Positions 2 to 24,143 of a stretch of DNA of 64,000 nt are shown one piece after another; position 1 is the first letter of the stretch, and every line of letters starts with the position of its first letter. The position numbers and the translations under genes are program-made. Under the pieces are notes generated by a model. That model was not told where the DNA came from. It saw only the letters and a list, made by a program, of their open reading frames with translations, and made no database searches. This DNA comes from Candidatus Binatia bacterium (GTDB taxonomy: Bacteria > Desulfobacterota > Binatia > UBA12015). The DNA is taken from NCBI GenBank assembly GCA_029248525.1, contig JAQWJE010000049.1, positions 186,001 to 250,000 on the forward strand, written 5' to 3'.

Positions 2-70
2 TTGCCCTCGTCCTCATTCATCACCGGAGCGTGTCTGAGCGTGGACGGCGGCATGTCGATTCAGAACTGA
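2..70 (+). CDS. C-terminus of a short-chain dehydrogenase/reductase (5' part outside window)
   Basis: The first 23 codons of the window read into a TGA at 68-70. The peptide contains FITGACLSVDGGMSIQN, the classical SDR C-terminal element (x-ITG-x-x-(L/I)-x-VDGG) that closes the cofactor/substrate side of the Rossmann fold. Only the tail is visible, so substrate and cofactor cannot be told. The next gene starts 3 bases after the stop, so the two are probably co-transcribed. The signature is short but specific to classical SDRs. Confidence 0.7.
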   Translation: MPSSSFITGACLSVDGGMSIQN

Positions 71-73
71 TGC

Positions 74-3000
74 ATGGCAACACCCCTCAAATTAGATACC
101 GTAGGGGTGATGGACGAAATGACGCGCGGAGAAAGGATGGGGGCCCTCGAGGACCTCGCGACCGAACTGGAGTCTACCAGTCCCGGTTTTGCCACCCGCC
201 TGCGTCAGTTTGGTGCGAAGGTTCAACCGCAGCAGAGTCCTGAGGCCTTCCGGGATCTGTCCGAAAGCCTGGCCCGGGTGGTGCGTCTGGAGGGGGTCGC
301 TCGCGAGGCCGGTTTGGCGCTCCTGACTCTGGACACCGGGGACGTTCTGCGCTTGCAGGGGCCGGTTCTGCGGGGCTGGGCAGACGCCATTTGCGAGATC
401 GGTTCGGTTTCCGTGCGTGCGGGGCAATCGTTCGGGGCCGCGGTGCTCCCCGCCTTGCCCGGCGCGGCTCCGGATCTTGCGGACCGTCTGGCGACCACCG
501 CCACGGCGCTGCGAGAATTCGTGGGCGCTCACCCGGGGGAACCGATCGTGAACCGTTGCGCGACTTTCCTCGGGGAAGCTTTCATTCACCACCCGACGCT
601 CGTCCATCAGGCGTGGCTTCGCTACGCGACCGCGGTCGCGTTTACGCCGCGACGGCCGCTCGATGTCCTTCGAGAATTGCCGAAGTCGATCGCGTTGAAT
701 CCGGAAGAGCTCGCAGCAATCCTCAATGTCGTGGCTCGTTGCGCCAGCTGGGATGTTCGTGAAGCACCCGCATGGTTTGTCGAAGCGCCGCATCTCTTGA
801 CCGGATTGCCCGGAGATAGTCGCGCCGGGTTGCTGGAAATTCTCGACACATTAAAGGACGACGCGGTTTCGGTTCTGGATCTCCTTCGTGGGGCAGGCCC
901 TGTGCTCCGCAGACTTTCGGCAGACGAGCGTGCACTCGTGCTGACGCACACCCTCGCAGTAGCAGTCGTTGCCCCGAAGGCGGCGCCGCGTTTTCTGCGA
1001 GGGGTGCTTCGAGTGGTTGAAGCTGTCGGCTTCGGGGAGGAACTGGAAGTCTTCGTGCAGGAAGGACTCTCCCTGGCGGAGATTCAGGAAGTCGCGGCCG
1101 AAGCGTTCTTCTCCCTCGAGTCCCGCGGCGCGAAGGCTTTTCTTGCGCGCCACGATACGGCCGTGCGCTTTGAGGATATCGAGACCACCCTTCGAGGTTA
1201 TCTTCGGATCCTCGAACGGAGAGCACCGAACCTGGTAGCCGTCGATCTTGGGGGATTGTTTCCCTTTCTGGACAATCGCAAGATCATCCCGGTGAGTGCC
1301 CGGTCGGGGACGTTTCCGACCTGGGAAGAAAACTTCATACTTCTGAAATTACAGGCAACACTGGCAACTCTCTGGGACGAGGCCGGGACTCGATCTTTCG
1401 ATCTGGGTCAATGGCTTGGGGAGGAGGCGGACGGCGGGTTCCGGGAACTCTATGCCCGTTTCGAGCTTCCGGAGGCGGCCGCCGGAATTCTGGCCCATGT
1501 GGAAGCAGCGCGGCTCGCGCCCTGGGTCAAGGAGAGGTTCCCCGGGCTGGCCGGGGATCTCGCCGACCTGCGCGCCCATGCCTTTCGCGGAGACTGCGTC
1601 CCTGCCGATGCGAGCGAACCCGAGGCGTTGCTCTTCCTTGCCCTGGGGGGATCATCCGAGCACATTGATTTCTCCTCGGAGGGAGCGGGGCTCGAAGGTT
1701 TCGCACGAATCGCGGCCGATCGGACGGCGACGATCTACGATAGTGTGAATGAAACGGTCCGAATGACGCGTCTTCTCGAGGCCGGCGAACTCATTCGCGT
1801 CACCAACCTCGAGGACCTTTTCCTCGAGGATCCGACGATGTCGTATTTGCTCGACGATGCCGACGAGGATGGAGGCCCCCCGCCGCCGGCGCCACCAAAC
1901 CCGGACAACCAGCCGATGGATGAGGCGAATATTCCGCAGGGCGAGCGATCGGAAGATACATCACCCGCGTCCGCCGTGGACCCGGAGCTACTGAAGGCCT
2001 ACCTCGAACAAAACCCCCGGGTGAAGGTCATGCGGTCCGAGGAGGCGCTGGATGCGACCGGATTGTTCGTCGCGGGGCTGACCGGTGGAGGCGGGGAACG
2101 ACCCGACCAGATTTCAAACGCGGAGAGGGAGCATGTCTTTGCCTTGTCGCGGGGTGCACGCGAAGCACGGGGCGTCTTCCTCTATGATGAGTGGGACCAT
2201 GAGATCGGTGATTATCGGGTCTCCTGGTGCCAGGTGCATGAGTTGGGTCTGGGCGATGATGATCCCGGATTTTTCTCGGAGACGCTGCAGCGATATCAAG
2301 ACGTTCTTCCGGAAGTGCGACGACAATTTCAGCGGGTCAAGCCGCAGGGCTATCGGACCATCCGTGGCCTCCTTGATGGTGAGGATTTCGACCTCGACGC
2401 GGTCGTTCTCGCCCGGAGTGACCTCCGGGCAAAGTTGAATCCGGCAACACGCCTCTACACCCAACGACAACGGGAAGAGCGCGATGTGGCGACGTTGTTT
2501 CTGCTGGATATGTCAGCCTCGACCGACGAAGAGGTCGAAAAACCGGACCTCGTCGAGAACTCGCAGGAATTGCCGGAAGATTTGTCAGACACCTTCTTGC
2601 CCCTTGAATCTCTTGAAAAAGAACGCGGTCGACGCGTCATCGATATTCAGAAGGAAGCTTTGACAATTATGTCACAAGCTCTCGAAGAGATCGGTGATTT
2701 GTTTTCGATCTATGGTTTTTCCGGACACGGCCGGGAGCGGGTAGAACTTTTTGACGTGAAGAGTTTCGATGAGGCGCTCTCTTTGGCGGTGAAGAGTCGG
2801 TTGAGCGCGATCGAGCCGCAACGTTCGACACGCATGGGGCCGGCGATTCGGCATTCGATCCGCCGGCTGGCCTCGGTGTCCTCGCGGTCGAAGCATCTGA
2901 TTTTGCTCTCGGATGGCTTTCCGCAAGATTTTGATTACGGTCGCGACCGGCGGTCCAATCTCTACGGCCTGCGGGATACTGCGCAGGCGTTGCGCGAGGC

Positions 3001-17025: not shown

Positions 17026-17065
17026 CTCCCGAACTCCGGCGATCCGCTGGAGTTCGGGAGCGTTT
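17026..17065 (+). terminator. Hairpin terminator after ppiB
   Basis: CTCCCGAACTCC (17026-17037) pairs perfectly with GGAGTTCGGGAG (17049-17060) around an 11-base loop, followed by CGTTTACT. It begins 8 bases after the ppiB stop. The T-run is short, so it may be partly Rho-assisted. It insulates ppiB from the large carboxylase gene. Confidence 0.65.
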
Positions 17066-17139
17066 ACTCTGCTGGATCTGTTGGTCCAGATCGAGTACCG
17101 ATTCCCTAGGTTGGAACGCGAGACTGGGGAGGAGGTCCG

Positions 17140-20100
17140 ATGATCCGTCGGTTGGCGATTGTAAACCGCGGCGAGGCGGCCGTGCGCTGTTTGCGGACTG
17201 TCCGTGCCTGGTCGGGGAGGACGGGGCAATCGCTATCTTCGGTCGCCCTTTTTACGGATGCTGAACGAGACGCTCCTTTTGTCCGTCAGGCGGATGTTGC
17301 TGTCGAATTGGCTTCGCCCTCGACACCGGTGGGGTCTTATCTCGATCACGATGGCTTGATCGCCGCGATTCAGGCGGCGGAGGCCGACGCTGTTTGGCCC
17401 GGTTGGGGTTTTGTCTCGGAGGATGCAGACTTCGTCGACCGCCTCGAAGCCGAAGGGCTGACTTTTCTCGGCCCTCGTGCAGCGACCATGCGACGTTTGG
17501 GCGACAAGATCGCGGCCAAGCAATTGGCGGAATCCGCGGGCGTCTCGATCGCTGCCTGGAACGGTGGCGTCCTGAAGGGCCCGGAGGAGGCTCGCAACGT
17601 GGCTTCCCGGATCGGGTTTCCCGTGGCGATCAAGGCGTCAGCAGGTGGCGGCGGTCGCGGGATTCGCATGGTCCATTCCGATCAGGATATCGAGGAAGCC
17701 TACCGCTCTGCAGCGTCCGAGGCCGAGGCGGCTTTTGGTGACGGAAGACTTTTTATCGAGGCTTGCATCACAAATGGGCGGCATATCGAGGTCCAGATCG
17801 CCGGCGATCATTTCGGCAATATCTTTGCTTTGGGGTGTCGCGACTGTTCGGTGCAGAGACGGCATCAAAAAGTTCTCGAGGAGGCGCCGCCCCCGGGGCT
17901 TTCCGCGGGGACCATGAAATCCTTGCAGGAGGCTGCGGTGCGATTGGCGCAGGCGGTCGGCTATCAGGGGGTCGGAACCGTTGAATTTCTGGTTCAGGGC
18001 GCGACGCCGTTTTTTCTCGAGGTGAATCCGCGGCTTCAGGTTGAACACGGTTTGACCGAGAGTCTGACCGGTCTGGATCTGGTGGAGTTGCAAATACGAA
18101 TTGCGCAGGGAGAAAATCTCTCCGGTCTGAAGATCCGCGAGACGGGTGCGGCGATCGAGGCTCGGGTGTGCGCGGAGGACCCCTCGGCAGGGTTCCTCCC
18201 CGCCCCGGGACGCGTGGAGCGGTTTGATGTGGCCTTTGGCCCGGGTGTTCGAGTGGATAGCGGGATTGTTGTCGGTAGCGAAATCTCGCCGTATTTTGAT
18301 TCGCTGATCGCAAAAGTGATTGCCTATGCACCCGACCGAGCGGGCGCGCTGTCCCGCTTGCAAGGTGCGTTATTTGCGACCGACCTTGTCGTTTCCGGTG
18401 GCGCGACCAATAAAGGTTTTTTGTTGGAAATCTTGCAGGACGCCGATTTTCAGGCTGGCGGCGTGGACACCACGTGGTTGGAGAGGCGTCTGGCGTCCGG
18501 ATTTCCGGTCGATGAAAAAACCCAGCGCGATGCGATGGTCCTTGCGGCGATCCTTGGCTATCAGCGAAACCGCAAGTCGGCACGAGGTAACTTCTTTGGG
18601 GATACCTCTTCGCTGGAACTTGAGCGGGTTCCGCGCTCGACGGGTCAGACTGTCGAGTTGGGCTATCGGGGTGGCGACTATGAGTTGGACGTTCTGGGCG
18701 TTGGCTCCTGGCGATATCGCGTCCGTCTTGGCGGTAACGAGGTGTCCGCGGCGTTACGTTCGCTCGATGATTATACCGGACTCCTCGAGGTCGACGGCGA
18801 GCGCTGCCGGGTCGCTTACGCGGCCGACGATGCAGGCCTGCGTGTAGAGGTCGACGGGCTTCCTTTTGCATTCTCCTGGTATGGTGCGGGCCGAGTGCGT
18901 GCCGCGACGCCGGCTTTGGTGGTCTCCCTGAGCGTGGCTGTCGGTGATCGCGTTCATGCCGACGATGCGCTCGGAATCCTGGAAGCGATGAAAATGGAAA
19001 TCGCCTTTCGCGCACCGGTTTCCGGGCTCGTTCGAGAAGTCGCGGTGCGCGCGGGGCAGCAAGTGAGAGCCGGGGACCTTCTTGCGGTTCTGGAAACGGG
19101 CGAAGCAGATTTGGATGCAGCGGAGGCGGTTCGAGTCGTCTTCCCGGCGGTATCAACCGCCGATGTTTCGCTGCGGGAAGAAGTTCAGGCCGTGTTTTTG
19201 GGCTACGATTCCGCGCCGTCCGGGCTGGAGCAGCTGGTGTCGGCGATGGAGCCAGGGACTTCGTCCTCGATCGGCTTTGCCGAAGACGAGGCTGAGAGCC
19301 TGCGCCGCGAGTTGCGCCTCTATATGGAGACCGAAGAGTTATTTCTACGGACACCGACTCGCGGGCGCGAAGGATCGGTTTCCAACCACGCTCTTTTGCA
19401 CCGCTATGTGCGGCGAATCGGCGCGGGCGGGGAGGGCCTGGATCCGGAATTCCTCGAACGAGTGGCGCGGATTCTCCAATGGTACGGACTCTCTAGGCCC
19501 GAACCGGGTCCTGTCCTGGAGAGAGCGATCTTTCGTCTCTTTGCCGCGCGTCGGTCGGCTGAACTTCGTCATCGATTGGCCTTGGCTCTGGTGCATCGGC
19601 TGGAGGCATGGGTTTCTGACGGACACGGACTCCGCCGCCATGATGAGCTCTCCGATACCCTGACACGAATGGCTGCGATGCGAGGGCATTTGCCCGAAGC
19701 GCTCGCGGATGCGGCCATCGAAGCGCATCACGAGATTTTCGCAGCCCCCAGGCTACGGCGCCGCCTCGCCCGGGCGGAACGAGACGCAGAGGATAGCCCG
19801 GAATTGCGAGCGGCTCTATCGCGGATGGAAGCCTTCGATCTGGAGAGACTCGAGGCACCGCCGGGGTTGGCTTGCCTGCATGCACGAGCCCGGAACCACT
19901 CGGGCGACGAGCGAATATTCGTGGTTGCCGAGGTTCGCGGCCGCCGGCATAGGGCGGGGAGATTGACTCGCTTGCACCTGGCCGCCTTCGAGAGTGCCTT
20001 TCATGATGCGACCCGACTGTTGCGAACCGTCCTCGCCGAGAGGGATCCGCGAGACCGTCTGCAATGGAATCGAATCTTTCTGATGGTGCAGCCGGAGGTT

Positions 20101-22014
20101 TTGCTCGGTGCGGGTGTCGTCGATGAATTGGTCGCTCGATTGGCACCGGCAACACGTCGACTTGGTCTCGAGAAAGTCATCGTGCGCTTCTCTCGTCTCG
20201 ATTCGGAAGATCCCGAAGCTGGGAGCGAGCAGTGCGAATTAGTCGTTTCTGATTTGACGGGCAATCGTCTGGATATCGAACTGCGGGCACCGAGAGATAA
20301 AGTTCTTGAACCACAGACGCCCTACGAAAGGCGAGTCGCTGAAGCGCGCCGACGAAACCTGCTCCCGCCACATGAAGTGATTCCATTATTTGGTGATTCC
20401 TTCGAAGAGTTCGACATTGATTCGGGGGCACCATCCCCAAAGTTGATTAGTGTCAGGGGTCGAGCATCGGGAGAGCATGAGGCTGGCTTGGTCGTAGGAG
20501 TGATTGGCTCGTCGACGGATGAAGTTCCCGAGGGGATGTTTCGTGTCGCGATCGTCAGTGATCCGACACGCGATATGGGTGCCTTGGGTCCAGCGGAATG
20601 TGATCGAGTTGTGGCGGCTATCGACCTTGCGGAAGAGCGTGGTTTGCCGGTGGAGTGGATTCCCATATCGGCAGGTGCGCGAATCTCGATGGAAAGTGGC
20701 ACGGAAAACCTGGATGCGACCGCTCGGGTGGTTCGAAGGCTCGTCACCTTCACTCAGAACGGCGGTATGATTCATGTTGTCGTAGCCGGCGTAAACGTTG
20801 GCGCCCAGAGTTATTGGGACGCACTGGCGACGATGCAGGCGCATTGTCGAGGGGCTTTGATCATGACGCCGGAGGGCTCGATGGTCCTCACCGGTCGTGC
20901 CGCGTTGGAGGCAGCAGGCTCGGTCGCAGCCGAGGACGAGGTCGCGATTGGGGGCTATGAGCGAGTCGCGGGTCCGAACGGAGAGGCTCATTATTTCGCG
21001 CGAGATCTGGCAGATGCGAGTCGCATTCTGCACCGACACTACAAGTTCACTTACGTAGTGCCCGGAGAGTTGATGCCACGATCGTTGCAGACCGAGGATC
21101 GCAAGGATCGAGACGTTCGCGCCACGGATTACGAGTGCGAGGATTCGGAGTTTTTGTCAGTTGGCGATCTTTTTGACGACGCCAAAAACCCCGGCCGGAA
21201 GAAGCCCTTTGCGATGCGGCAACTCATGGCGGCAACAGCAGATGCCGATATTGAACCCCTCGAACGCTGGCGCGACTGGGAAGGCGCCGAGACAGCGATT
21301 GTTTGGGATACATCGTTGGGAGGACATCCGGTCTCCTTGCTGGGCATCGAAAGCCGCAACATTCCGCGCCTTGGTCACCGCCCTCTGGACGGGCCGGCGG
21401 AGTGGACCGGGGGCACGCTTTTCCCGCAGTCCTCGAGGAAGGTCGCCCGCGCCCTGCAAGCATCGAGCGGGAATCGTCCGGTCGTCGTTCTGGCAAACCT
21501 TTCGGGTTTCGATGGCTCGCCGGAATCGATGCGGAACCTGCAGCTGGAATTCGGCGCAGATATTGCCCGCGCTGTCGTGAACTTCACGGGCCCGATCCTC
21601 TTTGTCGTCGTGTCTCGCTACCATGGTGGCGCTTATGTCGTCTTTTCGCAGGAACTTAATTCGCGACTGCGCGCAGCAGCACTCGAGGGTTCGCATGCTT
21701 CGGTGATCGGTGGTGCGGCGGCGGCGCAAGTCGTATTTTCCCGAGAAGTCGAGAACCGCGCTCGCCAGGCGAAGGCGGTTCTCGCTGCCGAAGCGGAGGG
21801 TCGAGGGTCTCCCGGTGCAGCTGCCCAGGCGGTTCTGGATCAAGTTCTGTCCGAGGCTCGTCTCGAGGCGCGCCTCGCGGTTGCTGCCGAATTTGATGCC
21901 ATTCATTCAGTGGATCGCGCGAGAGAGGTGGGCTCTTTGCACGAGATTGTTTCTCCGGGGGACCTCAGGCGTTATCTTATTGAAACCTTGTTTGGTGAGG
22001 CCGGAAAAAACTGA
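17140..22014 (+). CDS. Single-chain multidomain biotin-dependent acyl-CoA carboxylase
   Basis: A 1624-residue fusion with the order biotin carboxylase, biotin carrier, central region, carboxyltransferase. The ATP-grasp part has K165 and GGGGRG (169-174) and the catalytic EVNPRLQVEH (294-303). The biotinylation site is LEAMKME with K618. Residues about 640-1070 are helical and resemble the central spacer of eukaryotic-type acetyl-CoA carboxylase in position. The carboxyltransferase half (about 1080-1600) has TPYERRVAEARR, LANLSGFDGSPESM, SRYHGGAYVVFSQ (near 1495) and an oxyanion-type IGGAAAAQVVF. It should carboxylate an acyl-CoA (acetyl-, propionyl- or longer) using bicarbonate and ATP. The start follows GGGGAGGAGG. 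Most bacteria use separate subunits, so this architecture is notable. Acyl specificity cannot be read from sequence here. Confidence 0.9.
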   Translation: MIRRLAIVNRGEAAVRCLRTVRAWSGRTGQSLSSVALFTDAERDAPFVRQADVAVELASPSTPVGSYLDHDGLIAAIQAAEADAVWPGWGFVSEDADFVDRLEAEGLTFLGPRAATMRRLGDKIAAKQLAESAGVSIAAWNGGVLKGPEEARNVASRIGFPVAIKASAGGGGRGIRMVHSDQDIEEAYRSAASEAEAAFGDGRLFIEACITNGRHIEVQIAGDHFGNIFALGCRDCSVQRRHQKVLEEAPPPGLSAGTMKSLQEAAVRLAQAVGYQGVGTVEFLVQGATPFFLEVNPRLQVEHGLTESLTGLDLVELQIRIAQGENLSGLKIRETGAAIEARVCAEDPSAGFLPAPGRVERFDVAFGPGVRVDSGIVVGSEISPYFDSLIAKVIAYAPDRAGALSRLQGALFATDLVVSGGATNKGFLLEILQDADFQAGGVDTTWLERRLASGFPVDEKTQRDAMVLAAILGYQRNRKSARGNFFGDTSSLELERVPRSTGQTVELGYRGGDYELDVLGVGSWRYRVRLGGNEVSAALRSLDDYTGLLEVDGERCRVAYAADDAGLRVEVDGLPFAFSWYGAGRVRAATPALVVSLSVAVGDRVHADDALGILEAMKMEIAFRAPVSGLVREVAVRAGQQVRAGDLLAVLETGEADLDAAEAVRVVFPAVSTADVSLREEVQAVFLGYDSAPSGLEQLVSAMEPGTSSSIGFAEDEAESLRRELRLYMETEELFLRTPTRGREGSVSNHALLHRYVRRIGAGGEGLDPEFLERVARILQWYGLSRPEPGPVLERAIFRLFAARRSAELRHRLALALVHRLEAWVSDGHGLRRHDELSDTLTRMAAMRGHLPEALADAAIEAHHEIFAAPRLRRRLARAERDAEDSPELRAALSRMEAFDLERLEAPPGLACLHARARNHSGDERIFVVAEVRGRRHRAGRLTRLHLAAFESAFHDATRLLRTVLAERDPRDRLQWNRIFLMVQPEVLLGAGVVDELVARLAPATRRLGLEKVIVRFSRLDSEDPEAGSEQCELVVSDLTGNRLDIELRAPRDKVLEPQTPYERRVAEARRRNLLPPHEVIPLFGDSFEEFDIDSGAPSPKLISVRGRASGEHEAGLVVGVIGSSTDEVPEGMFRVAIVSDPTRDMGALGPAECDRVVAAIDLAEERGLPVEWIPISAGARISMESGTENLDATARVVRRLVTFTQNGGMIHVVVAGVNVGAQSYWDALATMQAHCRGALIMTPEGSMVLTGRAALEAAGSVAAEDEVAIGGYERVAGPNGEAHYFARDLADASRILHRHYKFTYVVPGELMPRSLQTEDRKDRDVRATDYECEDSEFLSVGDLFDDAKNPGRKKPFAMRQLMAATADADIEPLERWRDWEGAETAIVWDTSLGGHPVSLLGIESRNIPRLGHRPLDGPAEWTGGTLFPQSSRKVARALQASSGNRPVVVLANLSGFDGSPESMRNLQLEFGADIARAVVNFTGPILFVVVSRYHGGAYVVFSQELNSRLRAAALEGSHASVIGGAAAAQVVFSREVENRARQAKAVLAAEAEGRGSPGAAAQAVLDQVLSEARLEARLAVAAEFDAIHSVDRAREVGSLHEIVSPGDLRRYLIETLFGEAGKN

Positions 22015-22052
22015 AGGTCGCACCAGACCCCGAAGGCAGGTAGGCGTTGGAC

Positions 22053-24143
22053 ATGGGATTGCTTCTCAGGGATTTGCGGAGTCTTTTTCTGTGCGCTTGC
22101 ATCGGGGCCCTTGCTCCGGGATGTGCTTCGGTTCCGGAAGAGATCGTCGAAGTCAACGAGGATTCGTCTGCGGCGCCGGGGGCGACACCTTACGCCCAAA
22201 ATCCATGGTCGCACCCGGAGATCAAGGCAGAGCTTCTGCTCGACCGCCAAGTGGCTCGCGACCCCTCGGATGGGGGTGGAACCGCTCGGTTGCTCGACTT
22301 GCCGCCGGAGGGGCCGCGCCCGATCCCGGCCAGTTCTCGGCAAAGCTTTGTCATTGAATATGAAGCAGGACCTTTGGGGATCGCGCCCGGGGGCACCATT
22401 TTCTTTCAGGTCTCTCCCTTTTGGGGTTGGGAGTTACCGCAGACCGGGACCGACCAGCGGGGCGGTTTCCTGCGTGCGACGACCTCGGTTGCGGGAGTGA
22501 ACCTTTCCACGACACCGCTGACGCAAGGACTGGTGGCGATTGAGGTGAATGGCCCGGGCCTGCGTGCCGGCGAAACGGTTCGAATCGAATTCGGGGCAGG
22601 CGCCAGCGGCACTCGAGTGGATCGCTTTGCGGAGACCGGCGAACGTTTGTGGTTGGCAGTTGACGGCAACGGTGACGGCATTCGCAAACTGATCGAGGAG
22701 TCGCCATCGGTCGACATCATGGCTCGCGAAGCTTCCCGTCTGCACCTCGCATTACCCGGATCAGCTGCGGCCGGTGCCATCGTCCCTCTGACGATTGCGC
22801 TGCTTGATCGAGCCGGGAATAGCGGGATGCCATGGGTTGGCCAGATCGATCTTGCTGTGGAGGGCGCCGAGGCTGGCATTACGATGCCGGCCGCCGTTTC
22901 GCTTGCTCCGGAGGATCAAGGTCGCAAGACGATCGACCTTCGAGTGCCTGCTCCGGGTGTTTACCGGATTTCTGCTGTCGCTCGGCCTTCGGGCACGGAG
23001 GAGGCAGGCCCGGCAGCGCAAAGTAACCCGCTTGTCGTGCAGGAGTCGCCGACGCAAACGCTTCTCTGGGGCGATTTGCAGGTTCATACGCAACTCTCGG
23101 ATGGTTCCGGTTCCACTCTCGAGAATCTGGTCTATGCGAGAGACGCCGCTGGTATCGATGTGGTTGCACTAACCGACCATGATCATTGGGGCCTGAAAGC
23201 CCTCGACGATTTCCCCGAGGTCTGGCAAGAGCAGCTCGGCGAGGTGCAGGCATTCAATGAGCCCGGTCGATTTGTGACGGTCCCCGCATTTGAATGGACG
23301 AATTGGGTTGAAGGACATCGCCATGTTCTCTTCTTTGGGTCGGAGTCCCCCGAACTTCTGAGTTCGCTGGACGAGCGTTACGATACGCCTCCAGAGCTTT
23401 GGGCCGCATTGGCTGGAAAGAATGCCATGACGATCGCCCATCATTCTGCCGGGGGGCCGGTTCCAACAGATTGGTCGATTCCACCCGACCCCGACCTTGA
23501 GCCTCTGACGGAAATTGTTTCGGTTCATGGCTCGAGCGAATCTCCGGATTCACCGATGCCGATCTACAAGGCGAAGCCGGGAAATTATGTTCGTGATGCT
23601 CTCGATCGCGGGTATCGTCTCGGTTTTCTGGGCAGTAGCGACGGTCACGACGGGCATCCTGGTTTGGCGGGAATTGCGAGCGGTGGCAAAAGCGGTCTTG
23701 CCGGTATCTGGGTCGACGGTAAGGAGCCGAGGACACGCCGGGCCATCGCGAGGGCTCTGCGGGCCCGCTCGGTATATGCGACCAGCGGTCCGCGAATCTA
23801 CCTCCGGGTCGACCTCGATGGTTTGCCTATGGGTAGTGTTCTCGACGCGCCGATCGGTGGCGAGGCTGACCGCACGCAGGTTCTTTCGTGGGAGATCGCG
23901 GCCGAGACAAGTCTCGAGCGACTCGATATCATTCGTCGGGGAGCCAGGGTCATGTCGATCCGCCTCGACGGCGAACGCGATCTTGCCGGAAGCATCGAGG
24001 TGCCGGTTCTCGGCCCCGGCGACTGGCTCTATTTGCGCGCCGTCCAGCGCGATGGTGGCGCGGCCTGGTCGAGTCCCTTCTTCGTTCTTCGCTTGCAGGA
24101 AGTGGATGCCCGGACCGAGGTTGGTTCGAGCCCGCAACCTTGA
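22053..24143 (+). CDS. DUF3604/PHP-like lipoprotein
   Basis: A 696-residue exported protein. The N-terminus is a signal peptide ending at a Cys (LAPGC, about residue 25), a slightly atypical lipobox, so a lipoprotein anchor is likely. Residues 30-330 are beta-rich and unassigned. From about residue 335 a PHP-like metal site appears: LWGDLQVHTQLSDG, ALTDHDHWG, a later IAHHSAGG, and LGSSDGHDGHPG. DUF3604 proteins have the polymerase/histidinol-phosphatase metal fold; their substrates are mostly unknown. The ATG is preferred over a TTG two codons upstream. The stop lies inside a hairpin shared with the opposing small gene. A second DUF3604 gene is at 35933. Confidence 0.82.
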   Translation: MGLLLRDLRSLFLCACIGALAPGCASVPEEIVEVNEDSSAAPGATPYAQNPWSHPEIKAELLLDRQVARDPSDGGGTARLLDLPPEGPRPIPASSRQSFVIEYEAGPLGIAPGGTIFFQVSPFWGWELPQTGTDQRGGFLRATTSVAGVNLSTTPLTQGLVAIEVNGPGLRAGETVRIEFGAGASGTRVDRFAETGERLWLAVDGNGDGIRKLIEESPSVDIMAREASRLHLALPGSAAAGAIVPLTIALLDRAGNSGMPWVGQIDLAVEGAEAGITMPAAVSLAPEDQGRKTIDLRVPAPGVYRISAVARPSGTEEAGPAAQSNPLVVQESPTQTLLWGDLQVHTQLSDGSGSTLENLVYARDAAGIDVVALTDHDHWGLKALDDFPEVWQEQLGEVQAFNEPGRFVTVPAFEWTNWVEGHRHVLFFGSESPELLSSLDERYDTPPELWAALAGKNAMTIAHHSAGGPVPTDWSIPPDPDLEPLTEIVSVHGSSESPDSPMPIYKAKPGNYVRDALDRGYRLGFLGSSDGHDGHPGLAGIASGGKSGLAGIWVDGKEPRTRRAIARALRARSVYATSGPRIYLRVDLDGLPMGSVLDAPIGGEADRTQVLSWEIAAETSLERLDIIRRGARVMSIRLDGERDLAGSIEVPVLGPGDWLYLRAVQRDGGAAWSSPFFVLRLQEVDARTEVGSSPQP

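Follow-up and report, generated by a model that had tools for sequence, protein, structure and literature searches.

A predicted single-chain acyl-CoA carboxylase with a reduced eukaryote-type central domain in a Candidatus Binatia bacterium

When a bacterial biotin-dependent carboxylase carries biotin carboxylase (BC), biotin carboxyl carrier protein (BCCP) and carboxyltransferase (CT) in one chain, in the order of eukaryotic acetyl-CoA carboxylase (ACC), is its central region also of the eukaryotic kind, and what does such an enzyme do? To our knowledge, the large central scaffold was formerly held to occur in eukaryotes only. We addressed this question with one gene, encoding the protein P0001, on a 64,000-nucleotide stretch of contig JAQWJE010000049.1 (hereafter the window). 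By its Pfam domains P0001 is one chain, whereas the bacterial heteromeric AccABCD consists of separate subunits. The initial annotation had treated this as out of the ordinary; the implied surprise proved weaker, since such a bacterial enzyme, SACE_4237, has been published together with substrate assays. According to the portion of the report available (PMC6491548), SACE_4237 of Saccharopolyspora (S. erythraea) is a multidomain ACC that forms a homodimer and has a central region of the eukaryotic type, is active on acetyl- and propionyl-CoA and inactive on palmitoyl-CoA, and is essential; the same portion lists relatives in Actinobacteria, including Streptosporangiaceae, and proposes an actinobacterial origin for eukaryotic ACC. 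Enzymes of the SACE_4237 type are single chains of BC, BCCP, a eukaryote-type central domain and CT, as is P0001. As a stand-in for the SACE_4237 sequence we used its presumed orthologue from Nonomuraea (Streptosporangiaceae), which was 49% identical to P0001 in BC, 58% in CT and 24-26% in the central parts. Three of five actinobacterial homologues shared 53-58% CT and 49-50% BC identity with P0001, which falls short of the two annotated ones (1817 and 1830 aa) by some 190-205 aa.

The reading frame and its catalytic domains

The three carboxylase functions had been assigned to one 1624-residue chain in the order BC-BCCP-spacer-CT, and both the intact reading frame and the order of the Pfam domains bore this out. 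The gene, its flanks and its catalytic parts are as follows.

17026..17060 (+): terminator-like hairpin of 16 pairs between the upstream cyclophilin gene and P0001 (sequence)
17126..17135 (+): Shine-Dalgarno-like GGGGAGGAGG ahead of the P0001 ATG (sequence)
17140..22014 (+): predicted single-chain eukaryote-type acyl-CoA carboxylase gene (P0001, 1624 aa; ORF, Pfam, profiles, model)
17140..18495 (+), residues 1-452: BC domain (Pfam; 13 catalytic-site positions intact)
18496..18888 (+), residues 453-583: BT-like stretch (a sub-threshold ACCA_BT match at 502-573, E 0.023, and nothing else)
18889..19095 (+), residues 584-652: BCCP domain with the motif EAMKM (Pfam Biotin_lipoyl, 594-651)
18991-18993 (+): codon of the biotinyl Lys618 of the BCCP (EAMKM motif)
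20467..21999 (+), about residues 1110-1620: CT domain (Pfam, profiles, model)
22047-24143 (+): 698-aa DUF3604 protein directly 3' of P0001

The frame at 17140-22014 (+) runs uninterrupted over 1624 codons from ATG to stop, with a GC content of 0.71/0.49/0.63 at codon positions 1/2/3; the longest ORF antisense to it spans 17768-19354 (528 aa). Terminator-like sites numbered 12 in the window against 9.6 +/- 2.4 in shuffled sequence, a class not above chance. Chance can be ruled out for P0001 itself, because a same-species genome (G082) carries its last 517 residues at 100% identity and 12 relatives at 44-58% identity have the same organisation. A record titled MAG Deltaproteobacteria bacterium UBA12015 also matched at 100% over residues 434-965 of a 965-aa query. 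The source genome of P0001 comprises 4.27 Mb in 59 contigs and is 98.9% complete.

Pfam placed Biotin_carb_N at 1-117, CPSase_L_D2 at 122-328, Biotin_carb_C at 340-449 and Carboxyl_trans at 1132-1595. All 13 BC catalytic-site positions that we checked were intact, with the E. coli residue numbers and their motif-based placing taken as we presume them to be. In a 96-row alignment, in which gaps stem from incomplete contigs and one row (s_G036) is apparently frame-shifted at its N-terminus, the BCCP lysine was kept in 90 of 90 filled rows and the CT HGG in all 96. Single-sequence and A1-profile searches found the BC half nearest to MCC/PCC alpha subunits among PDB sequences; in the comparison with the PCC/MCC/GCC alpha-beta enzymes, BC and BCCP are likewise most similar to MCC/PCC alpha. 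The CT carries RYHGG where fungi have LRGG, and its motifs SGTEN, GVNVGAQ and SRYHGGA recur with small changes in the actinobacterial homologues. Since these motifs differ from the fungal ones, the fold alone cannot give the substrate.

Pyruvate carboxylase was considered and rejected. That enzyme has an HMGL-type CT in place of Carboxyl_trans; P0001 has Carboxyl_trans and no HMGL-type domain among the 19 Pfam families matched at E up to 1, and NCBIfam PRK12999 scored 534 bits against a cut-off of 965, with its best stretch at 2-466.

Two same-family genomes carry second copies, at L065 3029-7849 (-) and L063 3-4205 (+). Many of their BC catalytic positions are gone, and the L065 copy also lacks a stretch of the ATP-grasp; both still carry the biotinyl EAMK and the CT motifs, and may be BCCP-CT chains that rely on a separate BC.

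The central domain and its missing block

The available part of the yeast ACC study (PMC4833862) describes a central domain made of CDN, a four-helix linker CDL and the like-folded alpha/beta domains CDC1 and CDC2; the regulatory Ser1157 loop sits in CDC1, and CDL is tightly packed with CDC1. The corresponding parts of P0001 are as follows.

19147..19821 (+), about residues 670-894: CDN-like helical part of the central domain (models, profile)
19804..19806 (+), residue 889: junction where CDL-CDC1 (AC3-AC4) is absent (A3 alignment, long-relative model)
19834..20286 (+), about residues 899-1049: single CDC2-like alpha/beta domain (model, profile)

No Pfam family scored above cut-off between the BCCP and CT of P0001. 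Establishing the homology of the spacer needed profiles, because Pfam ACC_central (PF08326) matched one of 11 family members (E 0.029) and not P0001. We therefore built profile A2 from 11 family rows and profile A3 from 46 members including the five actinobacterial ones; for A3, 77 C-terminal halves were reduced to 60 by a 78% identity filter, and 45 were used together with P0001, L134 and L135 being left out after a motif filter. Against the PDB, the best 20 of 48 sequences found by A2 were all eukaryotic ACC (E 3e-25 to 6e-19), with PCC-beta next at 1.5e-11. A3 aligned yeast ACC 942-1610 as one stretch (whole-sequence E 2e-36) that ends in the N-terminal part of CT, and it also matched yeast chains that lack CT (5i6e 3e-14, 5csa 7e-14, 5cs4 1.8e-10).

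An AlphaFold2 model of P0001 residues 653-1624 (41 sequences, pLDDT 80.9, pTM 0.78) pointed the same way. The best 50 of 227 Foldseek matches (E up to 0.001) were all eukaryotic ACC, at 13-20% identity. In VIA, the model (7..972) superposed on the yeast holoenzyme 5csl_A over 832 residues with Z 31.3 and rmsd 5.8. The VIA list was headed by three mycobacterial AccD6 rows covering CT only (Z 33.6-33.9), and the best human ACC1 rows reached Z 33.0 (CT part) and 32.7 (model 22..972). Profiles and model thus show that the spacer is homologous to the central domain of eukaryotic ACC, and among solved structures the CT is by sequence profile nearest to those of eukaryotic ACC, closer than to any PCC/MCC/GCC beta subunit, which P0001 also differs from in being one chain. 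The description "eukaryote-like" therefore holds in a stronger sense than was claimed.

The eukaryotic order stood only in part: BC, BCCP, CDN, CDC2 and CT are there, and two of the four central subdomains are absent. P0001 is empty at 171 consecutive A3 positions (284-454), at residue 889, a gap that equals about yeast 1050-1279 when counted along the yeast-A3 alignment. Its model has helices up to model residue 242, one alpha/beta domain at 247-397 and then CT; the alpha/beta domain runs through three strands, a helix, a strand, a helix, two strands and an extra strand, which would fit the account of CDC2 in the available part of PMC4833862. L086, a long relative, was modelled over its central domain (31 rows, pLDDT 84.6, pTM 0.81) and shows two alpha/beta domains after a helical linker; in VIA this model spanned the yeast central domain in full, with eukaryotic ACC in rows 1-17 at Z 26.6-17.7 and the next row at 7.9. 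With one CDC-type domain in P0001 against two in L086, P0001 lacks CDL-CDC1. To equate CDL-CDC1 with AC3-AC4 is our own step between two naming schemes, taken via the title of 5cs4 (AC3-AC5, 1036-1494).

The absence is not confined to P0001. All or most of the block was missing from 10 of the 46 A3 rows (0 to 42 of 171 positions filled), and the junctions differ between the group of the window and that of L116. Mapped on the trees, counts that do not separate gain from loss, the short form required 3 changes on the CT tree (52 rows), at least 2 of them forced by starred branches, and 4 on the BC tree (45 rows), at least 3 of them forced. Loss is the simpler reading, because yeast and all five actinobacterial rows have the block. 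The absence of CDL-CDC1 is therefore real in the window lineage and repeated within the family. The checked BC, BCCP and CT positions were also intact in the short forms L079, L081, L082, L116, L124, L132 and L154.

Compared with the ACCs of yeast, Chaetomium and human, P0001 thus agrees in how CDN, CDC2 and CT are ordered and folded, but it is far diverged, lacks CDL-CDC1 and the Ser1157-type regulatory loop, and has RYHGG for LRGG. Compared with the actinobacterial homologues, which belong to another phylum, 171 profile columns of its shortfall are CDL-CDC1. Without a complete CDN-CDL-CDC1-CDC2, P0001 is a variant and not a standard member of the eukaryote-type, SACE_4237-type ACCs; as such it largely falls to a known bacterial family whose substrate, according to the portion available of PMC6491548, is defined through SACE_4237, an outcome that the initial annotation had named as counting against it.

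Relatives, gene neighbourhoods and other carboxylases

The spacer plus CT matched at >100 bits in 17 of 39 related genomes, the window's own included. From an even draw of the class, in which the genome of the window and its family were again counted, 26 of 145 genomes were carriers at E up to 1e-40. A contig scan of genomes with the peptides [DE]SGTENLD and NVGAQSY[WF] counted 304 relatives, of which 80 were listed, all titled MAG: 38 are titled Deltaproteobacteria, 28 bear Myxococcota names, and 14 have other titles, including one Alphaproteobacteria and one Spirochaeta. The current NCBI taxonomy places "Deltaproteobacteria bacterium" in Myxococcota, and 66 of the 80 listed loci are Myxococcota-like by title. 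The actinobacterial homologues do not carry these peptides as such and would be missed by the scan, so that nothing follows from finding no Actinomycetota in the 80. A scan of viral contigs gave no relative. The frequency of the family in Myxococcota-like genomes is new here; in the open-licence literature, a body that leaves most subscription journals and all of bioRxiv outside, we recognised no work on Myxococcota or deltaproteobacterial members. The part available of Lombard and Moreira (PMC3199775) reports no bacterial form with the central domain, judges the divergence of eukaryotic ACC too great for it to be placed and leaves its origin open.

The actinobacterial homologues, five in all, come from records that are filed as plasmids. 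One of these, from Nonomuraea, measures 11.85 Mb and is probably a chromosome; the other eukaryote-type ACC genes lie on Tsukamurella plasmid 10 (386 kb), on Gordonia p174 (174 kb) and on two Embleya records of several megabases.

In the BC tree, the better behaved of two, for which two of four chosen AccC loci were usable and which has no eukaryotic BC row, the family formed one set (100/100); the 36 remaining rows, of myxococcal type, were set apart at 99/97 from the actinobacterial rows and L156 (86/31). The CT tree included fungal ACC and outgroups of the PCC/LCC type and again united the bacterial family, actinobacterial rows included, as one set (100/100); it differs from the BC tree in placing the actinobacterial rows beside the L116 group together with L155 and L156 (96/98). 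The tree suggested with the initial annotation yielded one bacterial set and no root: we claim none, because the outgroup branches reach the maximum length of 10 and L147 comes first at zero length.

Gene context was compared at 41 loci with flanks, using as many as three ORFs per flank and identifying representatives with Pfam. A lipid-synthesis-type gene lay within three ORFs at 33 loci and at none of the other 8. Upstream on the same strand stood a ketoacyl-synthase-type (KAS) ORF in 26/41, an acyltransferase in 23/41, a phosphopantetheinyl-transferase-like ORF in 14/41 and a FabA-like ORF in 12/41. The window copy has no lipid-synthesis neighbours; the genes near it include those of an acyl-CoA dehydrogenase, a thioesterase and an amidase, and the best counterpart in its genome of the KAS from the relatives' cluster is a 34% match.

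A run of KAS, PlsC-like acyltransferase, phosphopantetheinyl transferase and eukaryote-type ACC recurs at L086 (1521-4829, 10434-11369) and similar loci, and from its gene content looks like a lipid-synthesis cluster. A lipid A-type acyltransferase lies downstream at 9/41 loci. In a Myxococcales MAG (L156 79-4458, +), a FAS-I-alpha-like ORF with FAS_I_H, Fas_alpha_ACP and ketoacyl synthase is directly upstream of the eukaryote-type ACC. The Tsukamurella plasmid has a similar pairing, with an annotated "type I polyketide synthase" and a holo-ACP synthase near the ACC.

The genome of P0001 gave no canonical AccA (best E 1e-9) and no AccC above cut-off, the latter as in 21 of 39 genomes; it has one gene of the biotin/lipoate-ligase family. 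It also holds a separate gene for a 1142-aa LCC-like chain, and an alpha/beta carboxylase pair beside a 587-aa ORF that NCBIfam leaves unnamed; P0001 therefore need not be the sole ACC. A 918-aa protein (G000 C13, L049 4335-7091, +), with a partial BC at about 250-565 and a biotinyl domain towards the C-terminus, adjoins a carboxyltransferase gene and by its domains appears to be an unusual alpha subunit. That the family replaces AccABCD was unsupported: canonical AccA was missing from 10 of the 17 genomes that have the family and from 8 of the 22 that do not (Fisher p 0.21), in a test on 39 genomes that kinship makes loose and that covered AccA.

Probable function and its meaning

We consider it probable, and with good confidence, that P0001 is a homomeric, presumably dimeric acyl-CoA carboxylase of the SACE_4237 type, which would likely convert acetyl-CoA to malonyl-CoA and also act on propionyl-CoA, with its scaffold reduced to CDN and CDC2. 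BC would carboxylate biotin on Lys618 with ATP and bicarbonate, and the BCCP arm would take the carboxybiotin to the CT active site of a presumed CT dimer. The central domain would act as a non-catalytic scaffold between BC/BCCP and CT, pared in the window lineage to CDN and CDC2 by loss of CDL-CDC1; with that loss, the CDC1/CDC2 hinge and its regulatory loop should be absent.

The same fold might instead serve another main substrate, an acyl-CoA with a longer or a branched chain, and work in the breakdown of lipids or in secondary lipid synthesis, with housekeeping malonyl-CoA coming from the LCC-like chain or the alpha/beta pair. The acyl-CoA dehydrogenase, thioesterase and amidase genes near P0001 speak for this, as do the KAS, acyltransferase and phosphopantetheinyl transferase genes that often adjoin the relatives and could make special lipids; moreover, 7 of the 17 family-bearing genomes among the 39 examined keep canonical AccA, so that the family need not be the housekeeping ACC. 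We nevertheless regard it as unlikely, given that the sole assayed member, SACE_4237, uses acetyl- and propionyl-CoA and is essential, according to the portion available of PMC6491548, and that P0001 shares the three CT motifs with the actinobacterial homologues.

The two further explanations are much less probable. P0001 could be a large LCC with an unrelated spacer, as LCCs have BC, BCCP and CT in the same order in one chain and the genome encodes an LCC-like chain. P0001 differs from them by its central domain: the family spacer is homologous to that of eukaryotes, LCCs are described without one in the available part of PMC4833862, and the spacer-plus-CT query reached another CT of the genome at just E 3e-4, the LCC-like chain not being among the matches listed. 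We rate as slightly less credible still that the missing didomain has left an inactive or purely structural relic. Decay does occur in this family, since the L063 and L065 paralogues have a ruined BC; the checked positions are intact in P0001 and in seven other short forms alike.

If P0001 is a SACE_4237-type carboxylase, it is a one-piece enzyme that starts fatty-acid synthesis, built like that of yeast and human with one scaffold block fewer, in a little-known bacterium. A further reading, which we put forward tentatively and think rather less likely than its negation, is that eukaryotic ACC including its central domain descends from a bacterial family with Myxococcota and Actinomycetota branches, the split between which is that of the BC tree; if so, the fusion and the scaffold would predate eukaryotes, and the window lineage would be a natural experiment, its regulated CDL-CDC1 hinge excised to leave a permanently unlocked minimal single-chain ACC. 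The SACE_4237 paper changed the view of the scaffold for Actinobacteria, and the same scaffold appears here in many Myxococcota-like genomes. These members widen the question of the source of eukaryotic ACC, for which an actinobacterial origin has been proposed, and the subset without the phospho-regulated hinge block provides a natural test, ready to hand, of the purpose of CDL-CDC1.
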